Shown here piece by piece: positions 28,927-46,971 of a DNA stretch of 64,000 bases (positions are counted from its first letter, which is position 1; each line of letters starts with the position of its first letter). Position numbers and translations under genes: made by a program. This DNA is from Lachnospiraceae bacterium. Its GTDB lineage: Bacteria; Bacillota_A; Clostridia; Lachnospirales; Lachnospiraceae. Below the pieces are notes generated by a model. The model saw nothing but the letters and a program-made list of their open reading frames with translations, had not been told where the DNA came from and ran no database searches. Location of the stretch: the NCBI GenBank assembly GCA_018365895.1, contig JAGZJD010000003.1, positions 1 to 64,000 on the forward strand. The letters run 5' to 3'.

Positions 28927-29022
28927 GTAGGAGATTCGCTACTCCTTAAGTTTTTTAAGTCTTTGTTAATAAATTTTCGTTTTCTTTTAGAATATTAACA
29001 TACTTTGGACACATTTTTCACG

Positions 29023-29028
29023 TATACT
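29023..29028 (+). promoter_or_regulatory. -10 box of the left small RNA
   Basis: TATACT, conserved in both copies inside ACGTATACTAAGAGTCAGAT. No consensus -35 lies 16-18 nt upstream; the conserved AACATACTTT is there instead. This could indicate an activator-dependent promoter. Confidence 0.5.
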
Positions 29029-29033
29029 AAGAG

Positions 29034-29182
29034 TCAGATAGATGAGAAACACTCATTTATCACCCCCCTCATAAAGTAATCACTTGGTGGAACCAACCAT
29101 AACAAGTGACACTTTACTCTCATTCCTTTAGATAACTATAAAACCAACGAAACCCGTTAGCCGGAAGGTTAACGGGTTTTCG
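29034..29182 (+). ncRNA. Candidate small RNA, left copy (C-rich loop, two stem-loops, terminator)
   Basis: The predicted transcript is about 150 nt. Stem 1 pairs GATAGATGAG (29037-29046) with CTCATTTATC (29052-29061), 10 bp with one G-U. An unpaired CACCCCCCTC follows (29061-29070). Stem 2 pairs AAAGT/ACTTT (29073-29077 with 29111-29115) and TCACTTG/CAAGTGA (29080-29086 with 29103-29109), plus inner TGG/CCA. The terminator pairs AACCCGTTAGCC (29151-29162) with GGTTAACGGGTT (29167-29178), loop GGAA, then TTTTCGCT. Between the two copies, stem 2 and the terminator are unchanged and its apical loop differs (AACCAA versus AATAAA). No open frame with a ribosome site fits. Confidence 0.6.
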
Positions 29183-29192
29183 CTGTAGATAT

Positions 29193-30800
29193 TTAAAACA
29201 TGGATGTTTGATGAAGCTGATAAAGTTTAACAGCTAATTCCACTTCTGTATGTAAAACGGTTTCTTTCAGATCAATATTCAAAATCTCACATATTTTTCT
29301 AAAACGATATTTTGCAGAATTATAATGAATAAATAATTTCTGCGAAGCATCTTTGATATTCCATCCACATTCCACAATCATATAAAGTGTTTCAAGTAAG
29401 TCTGTATGGTATCTTTGATCGTAATCTTTTAAAGGTTTAATGTATTTAAGGCAAAAGTCAAAGGATTCTTTTTGGTCTGCAATTGAAAATAGTAGGCGAT
29501 AGACTCCAATTTCGTCAAAAAAGATAATACAGTTGAATTTCTCCATTTGGTAACTTATTTGAATAACTTTTTTTGCTTGTTCATAACTTTGATGTATGTT
29601 AATAAGTTGGTCCACATAACTGCCAACAGCCATAGTAACTGTAAAAGGGACAAGGGGTGCTAAATATGACTGGATATCCTCAAATACATGTTTTAATTTT
29701 TCTTTGGTTTCAGTTTTATATTCATCAAAAATAAGAAAAGAGATCACGTCACTTTGCGAGTAATACTTGGTATTAGGAAAATACTGTTTCATATATTGAA
29801 TAGATGTACGGAAAATACAGTCAATATAATTTTGAAGCTTTGAGTTTGTTTCTTTATCCAAATTAGTAATATATTTCTTTTTAATATTATTAATGTCTAT
29901 GATGACAGCTAGACCACCATCTATAAAATTCCATCCATATAGCTGCGCTTTGGATTGAATTTCGGTAAGTGTTTTAACATTATTTAAAAATAAATCTTCA
30001 ATAAAAGAAGTTTTATATTTATCTTCTATAAGTTTATTGCTAAGAAGCATTTGCATTCGAACGATAATTACAATACTGGCATATTCGATTGCAGTTTGGT
30101 AAATATTCAGTTCCCAAATATCTTTTTCTTGTTTTTTTGAATGTTCAGTCAAATCTACAATATATCCATATTGCTGTTTTTTACTCGCAACCAAAAAAGT
30201 TTCATAGTTATTTATATAATAAGAACTATCTTGAATATGATTATAATTGTATTCTGAAGAAAAATATATTTTCCCGAAAACTTCGTCAACAAAAGCTACA
30301 GGTGCTTTGATTAAACTACCTAATGTGTGAAGGATTTCAGGAATAGTATTTTCATTGATAGCTAATTCGGTAAAGCGTTTATGAATATTATTTGATTCTT
30401 GTAATGCAAGAGCCTGTACAGAAACAATATTCGAAAGCACGGGGGTTATAATGTCCAGAAAGGCCAATGAACCCGGAGAAGAAAGAATAGGGAATTTTTC
30501 TTGTTCAGCTAATTGAAGAACCTTGTCTGGAATTGTGTTCCAATAACGATCAAGTTTAATAATCAATGCACTTCCGTTTTTTTTGATAGAGTCTTTGACA
30601 AATTTGACAAATGCATCTTCACTATTATTCATGGCATATGCGGTAGTGATGATAACTTCACCGCCTTTCAACCAATTGAAACCGTCAGGTGTATCAATTA
30701 CAGTAACGGAAGAAATTTTTCGTCCTAATCCAGAAAATCCCGCAGCAATTCTGAGTTTATCTTTTAGAGAGGGCAATTGTAATAAGTCATAGATAGTCAT
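29193..30800 (-). CDS. PucR-family transcriptional regulator
   Basis: 535 residues. The N-terminal part (MTIYDLLQLPSLKDKLRIAAG, residues 1-20 and on) matches the PucR N-terminal domain. The C-terminus has the PucR helix-turn-helix (WNIKDASQKLFIHYNSAKYR, about 475-500). I chose the ATG at 30800 because AAAGGAGT lies 6 nt upstream; a 32-codon extension has no ribosome site. Family members usually activate or repress catabolic genes. It is divergent from the membrane protein-amidohydrolase operon, so it probably senses that substrate. It converges on the left small RNA 10 bp away. Confidence 0.85.
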   Translation of the reverse strand: MTIYDLLQLPSLKDKLRIAAGFSGLGRKISSVTVIDTPDGFNWLKGGEVIITTAYAMNNSEDAFVKFVKDSIKKNGSALIIKLDRYWNTIPDKVLQLAEQEKFPILSSPGSLAFLDIITPVLSNIVSVQALALQESNNIHKRFTELAINENTIPEILHTLGSLIKAPVAFVDEVFGKIYFSSEYNYNHIQDSSYYINNYETFLVASKKQQYGYIVDLTEHSKKQEKDIWELNIYQTAIEYASIVIIVRMQMLLSNKLIEDKYKTSFIEDLFLNNVKTLTEIQSKAQLYGWNFIDGGLAVIIDINNIKKKYITNLDKETNSKLQNYIDCIFRTSIQYMKQYFPNTKYYSQSDVISFLIFDEYKTETKEKLKHVFEDIQSYLAPLVPFTVTMAVGSYVDQLINIHQSYEQAKKVIQISYQMEKFNCIIFFDEIGVYRLLFSIADQKESFDFCLKYIKPLKDYDQRYHTDLLETLYMIVECGWNIKDASQKLFIHYNSAKYRFRKICEILNIDLKETVLHTEVELAVKLYQLHQTSMF

Positions 30801-30869
30801 AATTACTCCTTTAAACAAATCTATATTGTGCAAAAATAATAGTATAATGTTTCTTGAATACAAGTCTAT

Positions 30870-30886
30870 TGTACAATATATGTACA
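30870..30886. promoter_or_regulatory. Candidate operator between pucR-like gene and transporter operon
   Basis: TGTACA (30870-30875), 5 nt, TGTACA (30881-30886): a symmetric site in the divergent promoter region. Assignment to the PucR protein is inference. Confidence 0.45.
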
Positions 30887-30910
30887 TAAAATACAAAGAT
30901 TATTTGATTT

Positions 30911-30940
30911 TTGATTATTTCAAGAATGTTTTTGTACTAT
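30911..30940 (+). promoter_or_regulatory. Promoter of the membrane protein-amidohydrolase operon
   Basis: TTGATT (30911-30916), an 18-nt spacer and TACTAT (30935-30940). Confidence 0.55.
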
Positions 30941-31038
30941 GAATACATATGTTTTAACTAGTGAAAATGATATACTTCGATATATCAAGGGTGTTGACAC
31001 TATTAAAAGAAAACGTGATATTTAAAGGAGTGAAATGT

Positions 31039-31746
31039 ATGGATTATGTAAAAATTTCAAATTCTAGTATCCTCTGGTTACTGTGTGGTATTACTGTTTT
31101 TATTTCTTTATTACAGGCCATTCTTTATATGCGAATGGCAAAGAAAACAGCAGTAAGAGCTAACATACCAGATAGTATACCTAAAAAAGCATTTCGAGTT
31201 GGATTAATTTCAGCAATTGGCCCTGCACTTGGTGTATTTATTGTTATGGTAGGGTTGATGTCTTCTATTGGTGGTCCTTTAGCATGGCTGAGACTTTCTA
31301 TCATTGGTGCAGCACCAACAGAACTTACAGCAGCAACATTAGGTGCGCAGGCATGTGGAGTTGAGTTAGGTGGGGCAGGTTTTACACTAACAGTTATGGC
31401 TGTCAGCTGGTTTACAATGACATTAAATGGTGCTGGATGGCTCGTGTCTACAGGTGTAATTACACCAGCACTTGAAAAAGTTAGAGATAAGATTAGTGGT
31501 GGAGATGGAAAATGGCTTGTAGTTCTTAGTGGAGCATGTTCACTTGGTATCTTTGGTTATCTGAATGTTAATGAGATTTCTAAAGGTGCTGGTGGAACTG
31601 CAGCAGTGTTAGGTGGTATCTTTAGCATGATGTTCCTTGCTAAATTTGTAGTACCTAAGTTTCCTAAATTACGTGAATACACATTAGGTATCGCAATGAT
31701 TATTGGTATGGCTTGTGCGATTGTATGTGATTTAATCATAGCATAG
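31039..31746 (+). CDS. Multi-pass membrane protein, DUF5058-like
   Basis: 235 residues with about six hydrophobic helices and several small-residue-rich segments (IGAAPTELTAATLGAQACG, GLMSSIGGPLAWL). It resembles, from memory, the DUF5058 family of unknown function. I chose ATG 31039 with AAAGGAG 8 nt upstream; the upstream extension lies in promoter sequence. It is followed 14 bp later by a second membrane protein, then an M20 amidohydrolase. The pair probably forms a transporter for the amidohydrolase substrate or product. No transport motif is recognisable. Confidence 0.75.
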   Translation: MDYVKISNSSILWLLCGITVFISLLQAILYMRMAKKTAVRANIPDSIPKKAFRVGLISAIGPALGVFIVMVGLMSSIGGPLAWLRLSIIGAAPTELTAATLGAQACGVELGGAGFTLTVMAVSWFTMTLNGAGWLVSTGVITPALEKVRDKISGGDGKWLVVLSGACSLGIFGYLNVNEISKGAGGTAAVLGGIFSMMFLAKFVVPKFPKLREYTLGIAMIIGMACAIVCDLIIA

Positions 31747-31760
31747 AAGGAGGAATAACT

Positions 31761-32429
31761 ATGGATAATAATCAACTCTTAAAAGAATGGAAAAAGAACA
31801 GTATCCGGATTGGTTGTCCGACCAACCTTCTTGCTGCTGTTACAGCCTTTATCCCTGTTATTTGGCTGTGTGTAAAATATGATTGTTGGCCAGATCCTAA
31901 ACTTGTATTGTCTGCGTGGGGAATGGTTGCATTATCGTTTGGCGCATTCTACATTGTAGAACCGGTATCCTATTATGCTTCATTAGGTCTTACAGGTACA
32001 TATTTAAGTTTCCTTTCTGGTAATATCGGCAATATGCGAGTTCCATGCGCTACAGTTGCACTGGAATCTACAGAAAGTGAACCAGGAACACTTCAGGCTG
32101 AAGTTGCATCTACAATGGCTATTTGTGGATCTATCGTAACAAATTTAATTGCTACAACAAGTGCGGTTTTAATTGGATCTGCAGTAGTATCGGTTCTTCC
32201 GGCAATTATTAGTTCAGCGTTAACGAAATATGCGGCAGCAGCTATTTTTGGTGGAACATTTGGTACTTGGGCAGTGAAATATCCTAAAGTTGCAATATTT
32301 GGTCTTGGACTTCCGTTGCTGTTAAAATTTACAATCGCTCCGCCTACATGGGTACTTATTATCGTATCTGTATTCGGAAGTCTTGGATTCGCAAGACTTT
32401 TATATGTAAAAGAAAATAAAGCGAAATAG
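31761..32429 (+). CDS. Multi-pass membrane protein, partner of the DUF5058-like protein
   Basis: 222 residues with about five or six hydrophobic segments. The central region NIGNMRVPCATVALESTESEPG has polar and acidic residues that could line a transport path. I cannot name the family. It lies 14 bp after the DUF5058-like gene behind AAGGAGGAATAACT. The two genes are similar in size and hydrophobicity and may form a heteromeric carrier. The M20 gene follows after 57 bp. Confidence 0.7.
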   Translation: MDNNQLLKEWKKNSIRIGCPTNLLAAVTAFIPVIWLCVKYDCWPDPKLVLSAWGMVALSFGAFYIVEPVSYYASLGLTGTYLSFLSGNIGNMRVPCATVALESTESEPGTLQAEVASTMAICGSIVTNLIATTSAVLIGSAVVSVLPAIISSALTKYAAAAIFGGTFGTWAVKYPKVAIFGLGLPLLLKFTIAPPTWVLIIVSVFGSLGFARLLYVKENKAK

Positions 32430-32486
32430 TAATTAATATTTAATTTAAAAGTTTATATTTACAAGTTATTTTATGGAGGTGCTTGT

Positions 32487-33668
32487 ATGAAAATGTGGGA
32501 AGAATGTAAAGAATTGCAGAATGAAATTGTGAGAATGAGAAGAGAATTACATCAGATTCCGGAAGTAGGGAAAATTTTACCAAAGACTCAGAAATATGTA
32601 CTGGATGAATTAGACAGACTTGGCATTTCTTATAAATGTTCAGAAGTTGACAGTAGTATTATTGCAGAAATCGAAGGCGGTCAGCCAGGTAAAACAATTG
32701 CACTTCGTGCAGATATGGATGCGCTCCATATTACAGAAGAAAATGATGTGGACTATATTTCTAAACATGAAGGCTGTATGCATGCATGTGGGCATGATAC
32801 TCACACAGCAATGCTTTTAGGGGCAGCAAGAGTATTAAATGCTCATAGAGCAGAGTTAAAAGGTAAAGTTCGACTCTTATTCCAGACAGCAGAAGAACTT
32901 TCAAAAGGTGCTCAGATCATGGTTGCTGATGGTGCCATGGAAGGTGTAGATGCCGTATTTGGGCAACATATTGGAACTATTATGGATAAGAAATTAACTT
33001 CAGGTAAAATCATTGTAACGCCAGGCTGTTGTATGGCATCTTATGATCGATTTGTTCTTAAAGTAAAAGGTGTAGGTTGTCATGGCTCTTCACCAGAAAA
33101 GGGTATTGATCCAATTAACATTGCTTCTCATATTGTTATTGCTCTTCAGACAGTAATTGCAAGAGAGATTGCAGCGACAAAACCGGCAGTTCTCACGATT
33201 GGATTAATTCATGGTGGAAAATCATACAATGCGATTCCGGATTTTGTTGAGATTGAAGGTACAATACGCGCATTGGAAGAACCGGTAAGACAACAGCTTG
33301 GCAAGAGAATAGAAGAGATTTCAAAGAGCGTCGCAGCTACTTTCGGAGGTGAAGTGGAATACTTTATGGATTGGGGTGCTCCGCCGGTAATTAATGATGC
33401 TGAAATGGCAGCACTTGCAGCAGAAGCGATTAAAGAGGTTGTTGGAGAAGAAAATGTAATTACAGAGATTCCGGCTCCAAACATGGGTGGAGAAGATTTT
33501 GCATATTATTTACAGGAAGTACCAGGTTCATTTTTCTTCTTGAGTTCTTCAAATCCAGAAAAACATACAGATGTACCACATCATAATCCACTCTTTAATG
33601 TAGATGAAGACGTTCTATATATGGGTTCAGCAGCATTTGTATCTATTGTAGAACACTACCTTAGATAA
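32487..33668 (+). CDS. M20-family amidohydrolase (aminoacylase/amino-acid amidohydrolase type)
   Basis: 393 residues. The M20D di-metal centre is visible: RADMDAL (74-80), HACGHDTH (99-106) and TAEE (134-137) with the catalytic glutamates. A dimerisation domain occupies the middle, and PNMGGEDFAYYL near 335 carries another ligand. Such enzymes hydrolyse N-acyl or N-carbamoyl amino acids or small amides in the cytoplasm. Together with the two membrane proteins and the PucR-type regulator it forms a self-contained uptake-and-cleavage cassette. A terminator follows at 33690-33726. Confidence 0.9.
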   Translation: MKMWEECKELQNEIVRMRRELHQIPEVGKILPKTQKYVLDELDRLGISYKCSEVDSSIIAEIEGGQPGKTIALRADMDALHITEENDVDYISKHEGCMHACGHDTHTAMLLGAARVLNAHRAELKGKVRLLFQTAEELSKGAQIMVADGAMEGVDAVFGQHIGTIMDKKLTSGKIIVTPGCCMASYDRFVLKVKGVGCHGSSPEKGIDPINIASHIVIALQTVIAREIAATKPAVLTIGLIHGGKSYNAIPDFVEIEGTIRALEEPVRQQLGKRIEEISKSVAATFGGEVEYFMDWGAPPVINDAEMAALAAEAIKEVVGEENVITEIPAPNMGGEDFAYYLQEVPGSFFFLSSSNPEKHTDVPHHNPLFNVDEDVLYMGSAAFVSIVEHYLR

Positions 33669-33689
33669 ACTAAATAATTAAATGTGGAA

Positions 33690-33726
33690 AAAAGCACTTC
33701 TTCTAATAACAGGAAGTGTTTTTTTC
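33690..33726 (+). terminator. Terminator of the amidohydrolase operon
   Basis: CACTTC (33695-33700) pairs with GAAGTG (33713-33718), extended by A/T pairs and followed by TTTTTTT. Confidence 0.7.
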
Positions 33727-33797
33727 TGTATATATGTCAGGCGTTATCAGAAAGCTATTATAATAAAAACTTGTAAAAAGAATATAAAAAGATATAA

Positions 33798-34029
33798 ACA
33801 GCGAAAACCCGTTAACCTTCCGGCTAACGGGTTTCGTTGGTTTTATAGTTATCTAAAGGAATGAGAGTAAAGTGTCACTTGTTATGGTTTATTCCACCAA
33901 GTGATTACTTTATGAGGGGGGAGATAGTTGAGTGTTCCTCATCTATCTGACTCTTAGTATACGTTAAAAATATGTCTAAAGTATGTTGAGTTTCTAAAAG
34001 AAAACGAAAATTTATTAACAAAGACTTAA
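33798..34029. repeat. 232-bp inverted repeat, right copy
   Basis: Reverse complement of 28955-29186, same length, with 12 differences counted by eye. Together the copies bracket a 4.6-kb cassette of four genes. Confidence 0.92.
33802..33950 (-). ncRNA. Candidate small RNA, right copy
   Basis: Read on the minus strand it has the same plan as the left copy: TATACT -10 (33961-33956), stem 1 (33947-33938 with 33932-33923), a C-run reading CTCCCCCC then TC (33923-33914), stem 2 and the terminator (33833-33804). In stem 1 a G-U pair becomes G-C and one A-U becomes A-A. Stem 2 and the terminator are unchanged. It converges on the M20 gene and is divergent from the response-regulator gene at 34174. 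Confidence 0.6.
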
Positions 34030-34087
34030 GAAATACAAAGATAAAGACAACTGTCCTACAAAAATTAAGTAAAAACACATTCTATTG

Positions 34088-34106
34088 AATCTTAAATCAA
34101 TCTTAA
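34088..34106 (+). promoter_or_regulatory. Direct repeats upstream of the two-component operon
   Basis: AATCTTAA at 34088-34095 and again at 34099-34106, an 11-bp period. This is typical of OmpR-family regulator binding sites. A third CTTAAA follows at 34125-34130. Confidence 0.5.
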
Positions 34107-34125
34107 TAATTTCTGTAACTTCCCC

Positions 34126-34154
34126 TTAAAAATTCTTTGGTAATCTTGTATACT
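34126..34154 (+). promoter_or_regulatory. Promoter of the two-component operon
   Basis: TTAAAA (34126-34131), a 17-nt spacer and TATACT (34149-34154). Weak -35, consistent with activation through the upstream repeats. The -10 lies 20 nt from the start codon. Confidence 0.45.
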
Positions 34155-34173
34155 GTAAGGGAGGTGATTATTT

Positions 34174-34869
34174 ATGTTTAATATTTTAGTATGTGATGAT
34201 GATAAAGAAATCGTTGAAGCAATCGAAATATATTTGACACAGGAGGGATATCATATTCTGAAAGCCTATGACGGCGAACAGGCACTTCGCATGATTCGGG
34301 ATAATCAGGTGGATCTGCTGATCATAGACGTTATGATGCCGCGGCTTGACGGAATCCGGGCTACGCTCAAGATCCGGGAAGATCATAGCCTCCCTATTAT
34401 TATTCTTTCAGCAAAATCAGAAGATGCAGACAAGATTCTTGGTCTGAATATTGGGGCCGATGATTATGTGACGAAGCCGTTTAATCCGCTTGAGCTTGTA
34501 GCGCGCGTAAAATCACAGCTCAGGAGATATACACAGCTTGGAAGTACTGTACAGAATGAATCGCAGGCAGTGTATGAAGTGGGTGGACTTCGTATCAATG
34601 ATGATCTGAAAGAAGTGACAGTGGATGGAGAACAAGTGAAACTGACTCCGATCGAATATAATATTTTGTTATTATTGGTAAAAAATCAGGGGAAAGTTTT
34701 TTCTATCAATCAAATCTATGAGCAGATATGGAATGAAGATGCAATTGGCGCAGATAATACGGTGGCAGTACACATCCGTCATATCCGTGAAAAGATTGAA
34801 ATTAATCCAAAGGAACCAAGATATTTGAAAGTGGTATGGGGAGTTGGATATAAGATAGAAAAGCTTTAG
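34174..34869 (+). CDS. OmpR-family response regulator
   Basis: 231 residues. The receiver domain starts MFNILVCDDD with phospho-acceptor Asp52 in IIDVMMPRLDG, Thr/Ser in LSAKSE and Lys in VTKPFNP. The C-terminal winged helix includes LTPIEYNILLLL and DNTVAVHIRHIREKIE. It is the partner of the large kinase encoded 12 bp downstream. The 11-bp repeats upstream suggest autoregulation. Its start lies about 220 bp from the right small RNA promoter, which points the other way. Confidence 0.92.
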   Translation: MFNILVCDDDKEIVEAIEIYLTQEGYHILKAYDGEQALRMIRDNQVDLLIIDVMMPRLDGIRATLKIREDHSLPIIILSAKSEDADKILGLNIGADDYVTKPFNPLELVARVKSQLRRYTQLGSTVQNESQAVYEVGGLRINDDLKEVTVDGEQVKLTPIEYNILLLLVKNQGKVFSINQIYEQIWNEDAIGADNTVAVHIRHIREKIEINPKEPRYLKVVWGVGYKIEKL

Positions 34870-34881
34870 AAGGGAGCTTTT

Positions 34882-37581
34882 ATGGAGAAAAAATGGTATC
34901 GCGCACCATTTATAAAAGGTGTGCTTGTCGTATTGGCACATATAGCAGTTGTGGCGTCTCTAATGGGATTTACCTGGGTGATTCTCTGTGCCGGAGTGAA
35001 CTATGTTAATCCGATTGCCAAAATACCGGAAGACTATGCACAGACGAGACAGTTTGGCAAGAACATGAACAATGCTTTGTATGAAATGACATGGAATCTT
35101 TTTAGTTTGAACGGTATAGAAAAAGACGGCAAACTAAATGAAGAAATGCTGATCGATCTTGAAAAATACTACAACAGCGGCGAAGTTTCTGCGAAAGAAG
35201 AGGAAGGAAATGGGTTTGTATATAAACTTTCCGATCTTATTAATGCAGAAGACAGGGAAGAGGACAGAGAAATTGTTGTTTGCCAAAAGACCGATGGAAG
35301 TTATACTTATGAAGAATGGGGAAGTATTCAGGGGAAACTGCTTTCAGGGGAACTTGTATTTGCTGAATTAGCGGATCAGGAAGGTTCTGAGACAGAATCA
35401 GGGTATGATCTGGATGATTTCCTGTATATGTTGGAAGACCGCTATAATGGTTATGAGTATAATGAGTATTTCGGAATCTGCAATAAAGAAGGAACACTGA
35501 TTTATACGGATTGCTGGAGAATGCCAGTCTCCTCAACAATTAATATGATGCTCGCAACGAAAACAGCAGAAGGTAAGGACGTTCTGGATTTAGTAAATGA
35601 AAATGCTTACTGGAATGGGCGTCTCCAGGAAATGGAGAACATGTTTGAGCATGCAAGATCCAGTCTTCGGGACAGAATTGATCGATATAAGGAATATCAG
35701 GAACTTTGGTCTGAGGGCAAGACAAATCTGACATTTATCCTTCTTGATGAAGAAAATAAAAAAGTTTATACAAACGATTCTAAATATGAAAATTATGAGA
35801 CAGCCAGTAAGAATTATAAAGAGTTGATGAAGAACAGTACCGGACGGGAAAATGCATATATTAATATGAGACCTGCAGAAGGTGAAGTGGAAGTGCAGCA
35901 GATTGCCGGTTGGAAAGCTTCGGAGTGGCAGTCGCTGTGTGAACATATTGAAGGAACGTTTGGAACAGAAAAAATTCGTATTGTTGCAGCAATGGATTTG
36001 GATTATCCGGTTACAGACCGTTTTCAGTTTATTGATGGAACTTATGATAAGGTTCAGCCGCATCTTCACAACCTGATTTTGCTTGCCTGGGGCGGTGTGG
36101 TCGTATTTTTAATCAGCATAATCTGGCTGACGGCAGTATCTGGAAGAAGCAATGCACAGGACGGTGTGAAAACAAATATTGTGGACCGGCTTTTTACTGA
36201 GATTCCGGTAGGAGTACTTCTTGGTGGAATTTTTATGATGGTAGGAGGAGTTTCTGTCTCTTACGGAGAATGGTACAACAATTATGGCAGATGGATCATA
36301 GATAATACTAGTTTTACTGCACAGGAATTTGTTCCATCTCCATCGATAGGCGCTGCGGAAGTGAGTCTGATCGTGTTGATGACGCTTGGCGGAGCAGTCT
36401 GCTTTTTCTATGGTTATCTAAGTTCTGTCAGAAAGCTGAAAGCCGGTACATTTTTTAATGGACTTGGTATTTGGAAGATTGGAAGATGGTGCATAAGAGT
36501 TACTATAAAGTTATTCCGGATTATTGTAAAAGGATTTCGGGAATTTTGGAGACATAAGAATTTGATGACGAAGGTGATTCTGATCTTTATCGGTCTGACA
36601 CTGCTTCATCTTTTTGGAGGAATTTCAGCATTCTTTGCATTCTGTTCCGTTGTGGTAGATGCAATTTTGTTTATCGTTTTAGTGAAGTATGCGATTGACA
36701 AACAGAAAGTTATGGATGGAATTAAGGAGATCACGGCAGGGCATGTAGAATATAAGATTCCGACAGAGGGATTAAAAGGTGATAACAAAGCGATGGCAGA
36801 GAGTATTAATGCCATTGGAGAAGGTCTTCAAAATGCAGTTGAGGAAAATCTGAAGAGTGAACGACTGAAAACAGATTTGATTACAAATGTTTCCCATGAT
36901 ATTAAGACACCGCTTACATCGATTATTAATTACGTAGATCTTTTAAAACGAGAAAATATCGAAGATCCGAAGATTAGAGGCTACATTGAAGTATTGGAAG
37001 CAAAAGCACAGCGTTTGAAGATTTTGACAGAGGATGTTGTTGAAGCATCGAAGATCAGTTCAGGAAATATTAAACTTGAGATGATGGATTTGAATTTTGT
37101 GGAAATTATTCTGCAGACAGCAGGAGAATTTTCAGAGAAATTTGAAGCAAGGGATCTGAAGCTGATATCTAATCTTCCAGAGCATCCGGTTATCATTCAT
37201 GCAGATGGAAGACGTATGTGGCGTGTGCTTGCGAATATTTATAACAATGCTGCAAAATATGCGATGGAACATACAAGAATTTACGCAGATTTGGAAGAGA
37301 ATGAAAATGAAGTTGCATTTTCCTTAAAAAATATTTCTGAACAGGCATTGAACATTTCTGCTGATGAATTGACAGAGCGTTTTATCCGGGGAGATATTTC
37401 AAGGAGTACAGAAGGAAGCGGACTGGGGCTTTCTATCGCCAAAAATCTTACCCAGAAAATGGGCGGAGATTTCCGGATCTATCTGGACGGAGATCTCTTT
37501 AAAGTAACACTTGTATTCCCAAAAGTAAAAAAAGAAAAAAAGGAAGAATACACGGAAAAACAGACAGGAGAAAATGCATAA
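34882..37581 (+). CDS. Large multi-pass sensor histidine kinase
   Basis: 899 residues, more than twice a typical kinase. Order: membrane helix 1 (about 12-37), an extracytoplasmic region of about 350 residues with no recognised fold, then several membrane helices (about 396-418, 436-457, 494-515, 565-605). A HAMP-like linker follows, then HisKA with VSHDIKTPLTS (His672), and the ATPase with NIYNNAAKYA (N box) and GSGLGLSIAKN (G box). The long sensor and multi-helix block suggest it monitors the cell surface or membrane. It is cotranscribed with the response regulator. Confidence 0.88.
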   Translation: MEKKWYRAPFIKGVLVVLAHIAVVASLMGFTWVILCAGVNYVNPIAKIPEDYAQTRQFGKNMNNALYEMTWNLFSLNGIEKDGKLNEEMLIDLEKYYNSGEVSAKEEEGNGFVYKLSDLINAEDREEDREIVVCQKTDGSYTYEEWGSIQGKLLSGELVFAELADQEGSETESGYDLDDFLYMLEDRYNGYEYNEYFGICNKEGTLIYTDCWRMPVSSTINMMLATKTAEGKDVLDLVNENAYWNGRLQEMENMFEHARSSLRDRIDRYKEYQELWSEGKTNLTFILLDEENKKVYTNDSKYENYETASKNYKELMKNSTGRENAYINMRPAEGEVEVQQIAGWKASEWQSLCEHIEGTFGTEKIRIVAAMDLDYPVTDRFQFIDGTYDKVQPHLHNLILLAWGGVVVFLISIIWLTAVSGRSNAQDGVKTNIVDRLFTEIPVGVLLGGIFMMVGGVSVSYGEWYNNYGRWIIDNTSFTAQEFVPSPSIGAAEVSLIVLMTLGGAVCFFYGYLSSVRKLKAGTFFNGLGIWKIGRWCIRVTIKLFRIIVKGFREFWRHKNLMTKVILIFIGLTLLHLFGGISAFFAFCSVVVDAILFIVLVKYAIDKQKVMDGIKEITAGHVEYKIPTEGLKGDNKAMAESINAIGEGLQNAVEENLKSERLKTDLITNVSHDIKTPLTSIINYVDLLKRENIEDPKIRGYIEVLEAKAQRLKILTEDVVEASKISSGNIKLEMMDLNFVEIILQTAGEFSEKFEARDLKLISNLPEHPVIIHADGRRMWRVLANIYNNAAKYAMEHTRIYADLEENENEVAFSLKNISEQALNISADELTERFIRGDISRSTEGSGLGLSIAKNLTQKMGGDFRIYLDGDLFKVTLVFPKVKKEKKEEYTEKQTGENA

Positions 37582-46200: not shown

Positions 46201-46275
46201 TAAGATAAATATGTTGGGAATTTTTATATAAAGATGAAACATGTGCGAAGTACGGCGGTGAAAGGAGAGGAAGCT

Positions 46276-46971
46276 ATGAATAATATTTTAGTAGTGGATG
46301 ATGAGCGGGAAATTGCAGATGTAATTGAGCTCTATCTGCAAAGTGACCAGTACAGGATTTTTAAATTTTATACAGGAGAAGATGCATTGGAATGTATCCG
46401 GACAACGAAGATTGATCTGGCGATTCTTGATGTCATGCTGCCGGATATCGACGGATTTGAAATATTGAAAAAGATTCGTGAAAAGTACACATTTCCGGTA
46501 ATGATGCTGACGGCAAAGACAGAATATATGGATAAGATTACAGGATTGACGCTGGGGGCAGATGACTATATTCCAAAGCCGTTTAATCCGCTGGAACTTG
46601 TGGCAAGGGTGAAGGCACAGCTTCGCAGATATACTCAATATAATGAAGGGCCTGTGAAGGCAGACGAAGATATTATTGATTTCGCCGGTCTGTTTCTGAA
46701 TCGGTCTTCACATGAATGTATTTATTATGAGCAGCCGCTGACATTAACGCCGATCGAATTCGATATTTTGTGGCTTTTGTGTGAGAATCGTGGAAAAGTC
46801 ATCAGTTCAGAAGAATTGTTTAAGCAGGTATGGCATGAACAGTATTATAAGAACAGTAACAATACAGTTATGGTGCATATCCGGCATCTGCGGGAGAAAA
46901 TGAGTGTGCCTACAGGAAAATCTGATTTTATTAAGACGGTCTGGGGAGTAGGATACAAAGTTGAAGAATAA
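46276..46971 (+). CDS. OmpR-family response regulator, VanR-like
   Basis: 231 residues. It has a receiver domain with MNNILVVDDE, Asp52 in AILDVMLPDIDG and Lys in IPKPFNP. The C-terminal winged helix includes LTPIEFDILWLLCENRGKVIS and NTVMVHIRHLREKMS. I chose ATG 46276 with AAAGGAGAGG upstream. The stop overlaps the kinase start by 11 bp. VanR-like pairs often respond to envelope stress, but no resistance genes are present here. Confidence 0.9.
   Translation: MNNILVVDDEREIADVIELYLQSDQYRIFKFYTGEDALECIRTTKIDLAILDVMLPDIDGFEILKKIREKYTFPVMMLTAKTEYMDKITGLTLGADDYIPKPFNPLELVARVKAQLRRYTQYNEGPVKADEDIIDFAGLFLNRSSHECIYYEQPLTLTPIEFDILWLLCENRGKVISSEELFKQVWHEQYYKNSNNTVMVHIRHLREKMSVPTGKSDFIKTVWGVGYKVEE

Follow-up and report, generated by a model that had tools for sequence, protein, structure and literature searches.

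Two near-identical inverted sequences, each with the look of a small RNA (sRNA) gene, bracket four protein-coding genes in a stretch of Lachnospiraceae bacterium DNA (assembly GCA_018365895.1, contig JAGZJD010000003.1, positions 1 to 64,000; the whole 64-kb stretch is hereafter the window). The question raised by this locus is whether the two arms are the ends of a mobile element carrying the genes between them, or RNA genes in their own right with these genes as neighbours. The Lachnospiraceae are among the commonest bacteria of the human gut. Our analysis makes it reasonably probable that the arms encode sibling C-rich sRNAs controlled by a two-component system and resembling the csRNAs and LhrC in their action, that they form a separate family, and that the four-gene cassette is a bystander. 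On this account an apparent inverted-repeat cassette becomes an ordinary gene neighbourhood, and with the gene of a candidate regulator next to those of the sRNA family, signal, regulator, RNA and target become testable as one pathway.

Architecture and spread of the RNA family

The arms (28951-29192 and 33792-34033) are inverted, 242 nucleotides (nt) long each, and align without gaps at 94% identity. They differ at 15 positions, 12 of which fall inside the 232-nt core that the original prediction, made from the sequence alone, had described as gapless inverted repeats with 12 differences. A search of the window with a 12-nt seed returned no second inverted repeat of 40 nt or longer, and beyond the ends of the arms identity drops to 16/40 and 10/40. 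The positions previously assigned to the -10 box, C-run, stem 2, spacer and terminator agree with the coordinates below, and both units are indeed oriented towards the cassette. As had also been claimed, stem 2 and the terminator are free of differences between the arms, the changes in that hairpin being confined to its apical loop (29093, 29094). The left copy has the predicted first stem of 10 bp, which a single A-A mismatch interrupts in the right copy. The folding of each arm surpasses that of all 200 dinucleotide shuffles (z -4.9 and -5.1). The units comprise the following parts, the scores being those of the covariance model R2 described further on:

28951..29192, +, left sRNA unit from promoter to terminator, a sibling copy of the long type (type II); R2 match 29035-29078, 45.7 bits
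28951..28992, +, upstream TTAAG/TTTTAGA boxes of the left copy in 11-bp phase, a candidate response-regulator site
28997..29028, +, direct repeat ACATACTTTGGACACATTT and -10 box TATACT (29023-29028) of the left copy
29037..29061, +, hairpin 1 of the left RNA, at the predicted 5' end
29063..29068, +, six-C run of the left RNA, predicted to be unpaired, conserved as CCCCC(C)TCAT
29073..29115, +, stem 2 of the left RNA
29116..29141, +, conserved spacer ACTCTCATTCCTTTAGATAACTATAA of the left RNA, which we take to resemble the anti-Shine-Dalgarno (anti-SD) sequence of 16S RNA
29150..29180, +, intrinsic terminator of the left RNA
33792..34033, -, right sRNA unit, divergent from the two-component system; R2 57.5 bits
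33938..33947, -, 5' arm of hairpin 1 of the right RNA
33916..33921, -, six-C run of the right RNA
33804..33834, -, intrinsic terminator of the right RNA

A scan of the window against Rfam 15 gave no gathering-level match. Comparison with phage records by blastn recovered three fecal contigs with a whole or partial unit, two of which share only the promoter, hairpin 1 and the C-run, followed by a different terminator. A single search pattern, written from the comparison of the window with the fecal contigs, matched at least 119 stretches in GTDB species genomes and one in viral contigs. Among the matches listed there are one Bacteroidetes metagenome-assembled genome (MAG), one Bacillus MAG and 2-3 unplaced sequences, and the remainder belong to Lachnospiraceae, their genera and other Clostridia. 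An exact promoter pattern had no match in viral contigs, and a search of a plasmid collection yielded a best E of 0.7 and nothing relevant. The GTDB matches listed, the viral contig, the window and the three fecal contigs together constitute a set of 136 copies (124 sequences); the Bacteroidetes MAG (L010) is included in the totals of 119 and 136, and excluded from alignments and promoter counts.

The copies fall into a short subtype, consisting of hairpin 1, C-run and terminator, and a long subtype (32/136), which adds a second hairpin and a nearly invariant version of the spacer given above and includes both window copies. The C-run and the spacer are the most conserved unpaired parts of the RNA. 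RNAalifold on a MAFFT alignment missed stem 2 because the length of this stem varies, and the segments were then folded singly; all 32 distinct long-type segments reached z below -2 (mean -5.0, 100 mononucleotide shuffles each). Many pair types occur at equal depth in this stem, with the pairing kept and the apical sequence varying.

None of the results rests on a model (R1) built on the MAFFT alignment that hid stem 2; the model R2 covers a 44-nt core and derives from an alignment of 85 sequences. R2 has a match at E<=1e-3 in 132 of 397 Lachnospiraceae genomes. In a phylum-wide draw 2 of 199 genomes were positive, both of them also present in the family draw: G004, the centre of the phylum-wide draw, and G222, with a weak match of 30.7 bits. 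Since the genome of the Bacteroidetes MAG itself attains 28.3 bits (E 1.8e-4), family matches weaker than about 1e-6 may be due to chance, and 15 of the 132 positive genomes, counted by eye, fall in this range. There are 1-4 copies per genome in 20 genomes chosen as carriers and 1-5 in 38 genomes with an ortholog of the kinase discussed below, five of which were already among the 20. Judged from sequence, the RNA family is Lachnospiraceae-wide. The covariance searches of Rfam and of the Lachnospiraceae genomes thus support the earlier view of the arms as complete sRNA genes of a family that it did not recognise. Three genomic loci (L242, L251, L245) contain three tandem copies with 1.6-3.7 kb of differing genes between them, and in L018 two copies (501, 5983) lie 5.5 kb apart and are directed away from one another.

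The window arms are the closest pair (94%) among 20 aligned units. Other within-genome siblings are 57-83% alike, and some copies are nearer to a copy in another genome (87-88%). Where conservation is middling, the two arms agree in 96.5% of columns, versus 57-79% in five comparison pairs (three pairs of within-genome siblings and two between-genome pairs); the difference shrinks in the most variable columns, to 71% versus 23-67%. Selection on structure alone is an unlikely source of this agreement, which probably stems from a recent duplication or from gene conversion confined to the homologous unit; either process fits the data. The original prediction had contrasted a structured RNA under selection with a simple duplication: the former holds for the family as a whole, and the latter was dismissed too readily for these two arms.

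The adjacent two-component system

The more informative link at this locus, absent from the original prediction, is a two-component system directly to the right of the right arm:

34101..34154, +, promoter of the response-regulator gene, a candidate for autoregulation, with TTAA boxes from 34101 and 34124 and TATACT at 34149
34174..34869, +, OmpR/VanR-like response regulator, probable activator of the RNAs
34882..37581, +, sensor histidine kinase (HisKA and HATPase_c)

The regulator is of the OmpR type, its best NCBIfam match being VanR (291 bits, below the cut-off of 350). A kinase ortholog scoring above 500 bits occurs in 38 of the 397 Lachnospiraceae genomes (four of these matches begin only at residue 111-126), and the RNA is present in all 38, as against 94 of the 359 others. 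In 22 of the 38 the response-regulator gene has an RNA copy no more than 2.5 kb away, and in 21 of these, G014 being the exception, that copy is divergent from it like the right arm of the window; we estimate that chance would account for well under one such genome. In four further genomes (G261, G142, G154, G365) a contig ends too near the regulator for the position to be judged.

Alignment of the RNA promoters on the -10 box (128 of 134 anchored) revealed a direct repeat before it, ACACAtTTTggACACATTT (the CACA repeat), and TTTA/TTAAG-like boxes farther upstream in an 11-bp phase, a pattern expected for a regulator of the OmpR family. In the promoter of the regulator gene itself, TCTTAAGAATTT and CTCTTAAAAA boxes are conserved, and their spacing to the -10 box is fixed. 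A box matrix trained on 20 regulator promoters and on no RNA promoter peaks in the RNA promoters at -53 (mean -3.2) and -73 (mean -4.0), the best value in 100 mononucleotide shuffles being -13.5. The shared boxes are suggestive, not proof, of control of the RNA promoters by the regulator, and control is supported by position and boxes taken together. The CACA repeat has 25 matches in 16 genomes, 23 of them at RNA genes; these cover half of the 46 RNA copies in the 16 genomes, and a reversed control pattern gave 7 matches; by these counts the repeat is almost private to the RNA genes.

We accordingly envisage that the regulator, activated by the kinase, would bind the phased boxes and turn on all sibling RNA copies together. 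The free C-run might then pair with the ribosome-binding sites of target mRNAs and block their translation, by analogy with the csRNAs and LhrC, and in the long subtype the spacer CUCAUUCCUUU might pair with such sites as well. The right arm would represent the copy in its usual place, divergent from the two-component operon, and the left arm a second copy kept near-identical by one of the two processes named above; the cassette would have come to lie between them without being mobilised by them.

Several observations weigh against this reading. RNA copies occur only away from the regulator in 12 of the 38 kinase-positive genomes, and in 21 of the 132 genomes with the RNA no regulator hit reaches 1e-75. 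Co-occurrence is confounded by kinship: from the closest bin of regulator similarity to no hit, the RNA is present in 80, 55, 35, 19, 15 and 18% of genomes. The matrix means are all below zero, which marks the box matches as partial; the smaller peaks at -64 and -84 scarcely exceed one at -18, and the shuffles preserved base composition only. The regulator's own promoter is devoid of the CACA repeat, and thus a second factor may act on the RNA genes. On the side of the targets, complements of the C-run of at least 8 nt at 1413 start regions number 11, versus 10 for the reversed word, which is no excess; those of at least 6 nt number 347 versus 239, an excess that may reflect plain likeness to the Shine-Dalgarno (SD) sequence. 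The exact 10-mer has 141 matches in 20 genomes, about 99 once RNA copies are subtracted by eye, versus 77 for a reversed control. Among 20 such sites inspected a script had flagged an open start codon behind nine, and after selection by eye one (L356) resembles a ribosome-binding site. In L161 and L169 the start of the kinase gene has a sequence complementary to the spacer, which was set aside as not general.

Other features were noted around the regulator. Small proteins of about 115 residues are encoded near RNA and regulator in L239 (4312-4656), L242 (8183-8542) and L243 (4793-5143); the last is a stand-alone Spo0A_C DNA-binding domain, and the other two resemble each other by eye. Some upstream regions of the regulator gene contain TTCGACA-like sites, reminiscent of the Spo0A box. 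In the window itself, 46275-46338 is the start of a second response-regulator-like gene, 70% identical over 64 nt to the gene at 34173.

The cassette and the rival explanations

The genes between the arms, which we place outside the RNA system, are these:

29193..30800, -, PucR-type regulator
31039..33668, +, genes for a DUF5058 protein, an unnamed open reading frame and an M20 amidohydrolase

The unnamed frame (31761-32429) encodes a protein without Pfam or NCBIfam match that is 85% identical in G004 and G247. In these two genomes the cassette genes occur together (L246, L247; 51-85% identity), and the 12-13 kb compared contain no RNA hit. A 28% relative of the unmatched protein lies near the RNA array of L251. 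The order in relatives (L244, L250) is citrate synthase, alpha/beta hydrolase, RNA, in places another gene, regulator, kinase and methyltransferase; the window keeps this order, with the cassette between two RNAs. Among the loci compared, the RNA lies directly downstream of the hydrolase gene and convergent with it in nine genomes. In [Ruminococcus] faecis (L249) the hydrolase gene is followed by two RNA copies in inverted, convergent orientation, and there is no cassette; one of the copies scores low (35.6 bits), and no regulator gene lies within the 7 kb examined. Inverted RNA pairs elsewhere bracket an HhH-GPD protein, an HD protein and a methyltransferase (L239), or an amino-acid kinase-family protein and BacA (L240), and hence the bracket is not specific to PucR/DUF5058/M20 cargo. 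With the cassette found apart from the RNAs and an RNA pair apart from the cassette, the weight laid on bracketing by the original prediction is not sustained; the cassette looks like a chance neighbour and not like a mobile element.

The same comparisons bear on the proposal that the two arms delimit a composite mobile element as its inverted ends. Their near-identity and sharp ends would fit such an element, as would the integrases beside RNA genes in other genomes, yet none of the four cassette genes is a recognised transposase or integrase (one being without Pfam match), no target-site duplication was seen in the outer flanks when read by eye, arms and cassette occur without each other, and other inverted pairs enclose unrelated genes; we regard it as very improbable. 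Equally hard to credit is that the units are merely bidirectional terminators or cis elements of their neighbours. The left terminator does end just before the convergent pucR stop, and the right one faces the cassette operon, but the units have their own conserved promoter and -10 box, a conserved hairpin 1 and C-run some 80-110 nt ahead of the terminator, and tandem copies with differing neighbours.

A very short leaderless peptide encoded across the C-run can be read in the window copies as ATG...CCCCCCTCATAA, and in 86 of 135 copies the run shares its frame with the sole possible start. The run is, however, five long in 46 and six long in 86 of the 135 (3 unparsed), the loop length modulo 3 varies (87/26/22) and shifts the frame, and the -10 box is too close for a ribosome-binding site to fit before the start; the frame not being kept, we rejected this possibility as scarcely conceivable. 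Somewhat more serious, though still unlikely in our estimation, is a decoy, in which the C-run or the anti-SD-like spacer titrates a protein or ribosome factor and pairs with no mRNA. The conservation of precisely these unpaired parts and the lack of a clear enrichment in the target searches would agree with it; against it, C-rich motifs of known Firmicute sRNAs pair with SD sequences, as described for LhrC (PMC4132741).

Known sRNA systems and integrative elements

The csRNAs of streptococci, which depend on CiaRH, are the closest parallel. They are described (PMC3091779) as several similar sRNAs per genome, often with a 5' stem-loop, an unpaired anti-SD-like stretch and a terminator, and as being under two-component control via TTAAG half-sites, for which the TTAAG-like boxes seen here would be the counterpart. 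The Lachnospiraceae RNAs likewise have several similar copies per genome, a 5' hairpin and a terminator; the unpaired stretch of csRNAs is complementary to the SD and AUG of their targets, and the C-run could pair with an SD, although no clear enrichment appeared at start regions. The two differ in sequence and lineage, and the free stretch of the Lachnospiraceae RNA is CCCCCCUCAU. In the csRNAs the CiaR repeat NTTAAG-N5-TTTAAG stands about 10 nt before the -10 box, whereas here that place is taken by the CACA repeat and the TTAAG-like boxes are at -53 and -73. The long subtype has an extra hairpin relative to the csRNAs. That Lachnospiraceae copies often adjoin the two-component operon may be a further difference.

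LhrC1-5 of Listeria, which depend on LisRK, are likewise multicopy, with C-rich motifs that bind the start of an mRNA (PMC4132741). The same paper describes three CU-rich motifs in LhrC, two in loops and one in a linker, whereas the RNA studied here has one C-run plus, in type II, a U/C-rich spacer. The Lachnospiraceae RNAs share the multicopy and C-rich character, and adjacency and shared boxes point to a comparable two-component link. LhrC is included in Rfam, where the window RNA has no gathering-level match. RsaE/RoxS (RF01820) is another C-rich Firmicute sRNA, with weak full-length matches to the window (E 0.05 and 0.03). Membership was rejected because the two scores, 23.5 and 25 bits, fall short of the gathering score (79), and in relatives this family is not the leading match, with 17.4 bits in L071 and none listed in L036. 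A short-type member (L022) gave scattered Rfam matches, none reaching the gathering score of its family.

In the literature on sRNAs and structured RNAs of Lachnospiraceae, gut genera and Clostridium, surveyed by titles and the beginnings of abstracts, no such family is named among the papers listed, and an earlier prediction may exist in a 2011 clostridial survey. In the transcription start-site study of C. phytofermentans the list of non-coding RNAs rests on Rfam 12 (PMC5171806). We thus appear to be dealing with a new sRNA family of an already known kind, namely C-rich, multicopy and linked to a two-component system.

A bolder proposal, which we entertain with considerable doubt, is a form of control specific to the Lachnospiraceae, in which a conserved two-component system would act mainly via several sibling sRNAs with near-private promoters, and the RNA genes would be recurrent landing sites of integrative elements, with foreign gene sets collecting between copies.

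In three loci a tyrosine integrase gene lies directly downstream of an RNA gene (L001:355-1560, L245:9158-10360, L200:1746-2948), the proteins being 100%, 100% and 84% identical, respectively, to that of L001; these positions suggest the RNA 3' end as an attachment site. A second, different integrase lies directly upstream of an RNA gene in L251 (1112-2263), L192 and L123 (9408-10556); G397 and an IMG/VR viral contig carry identical versions of it.

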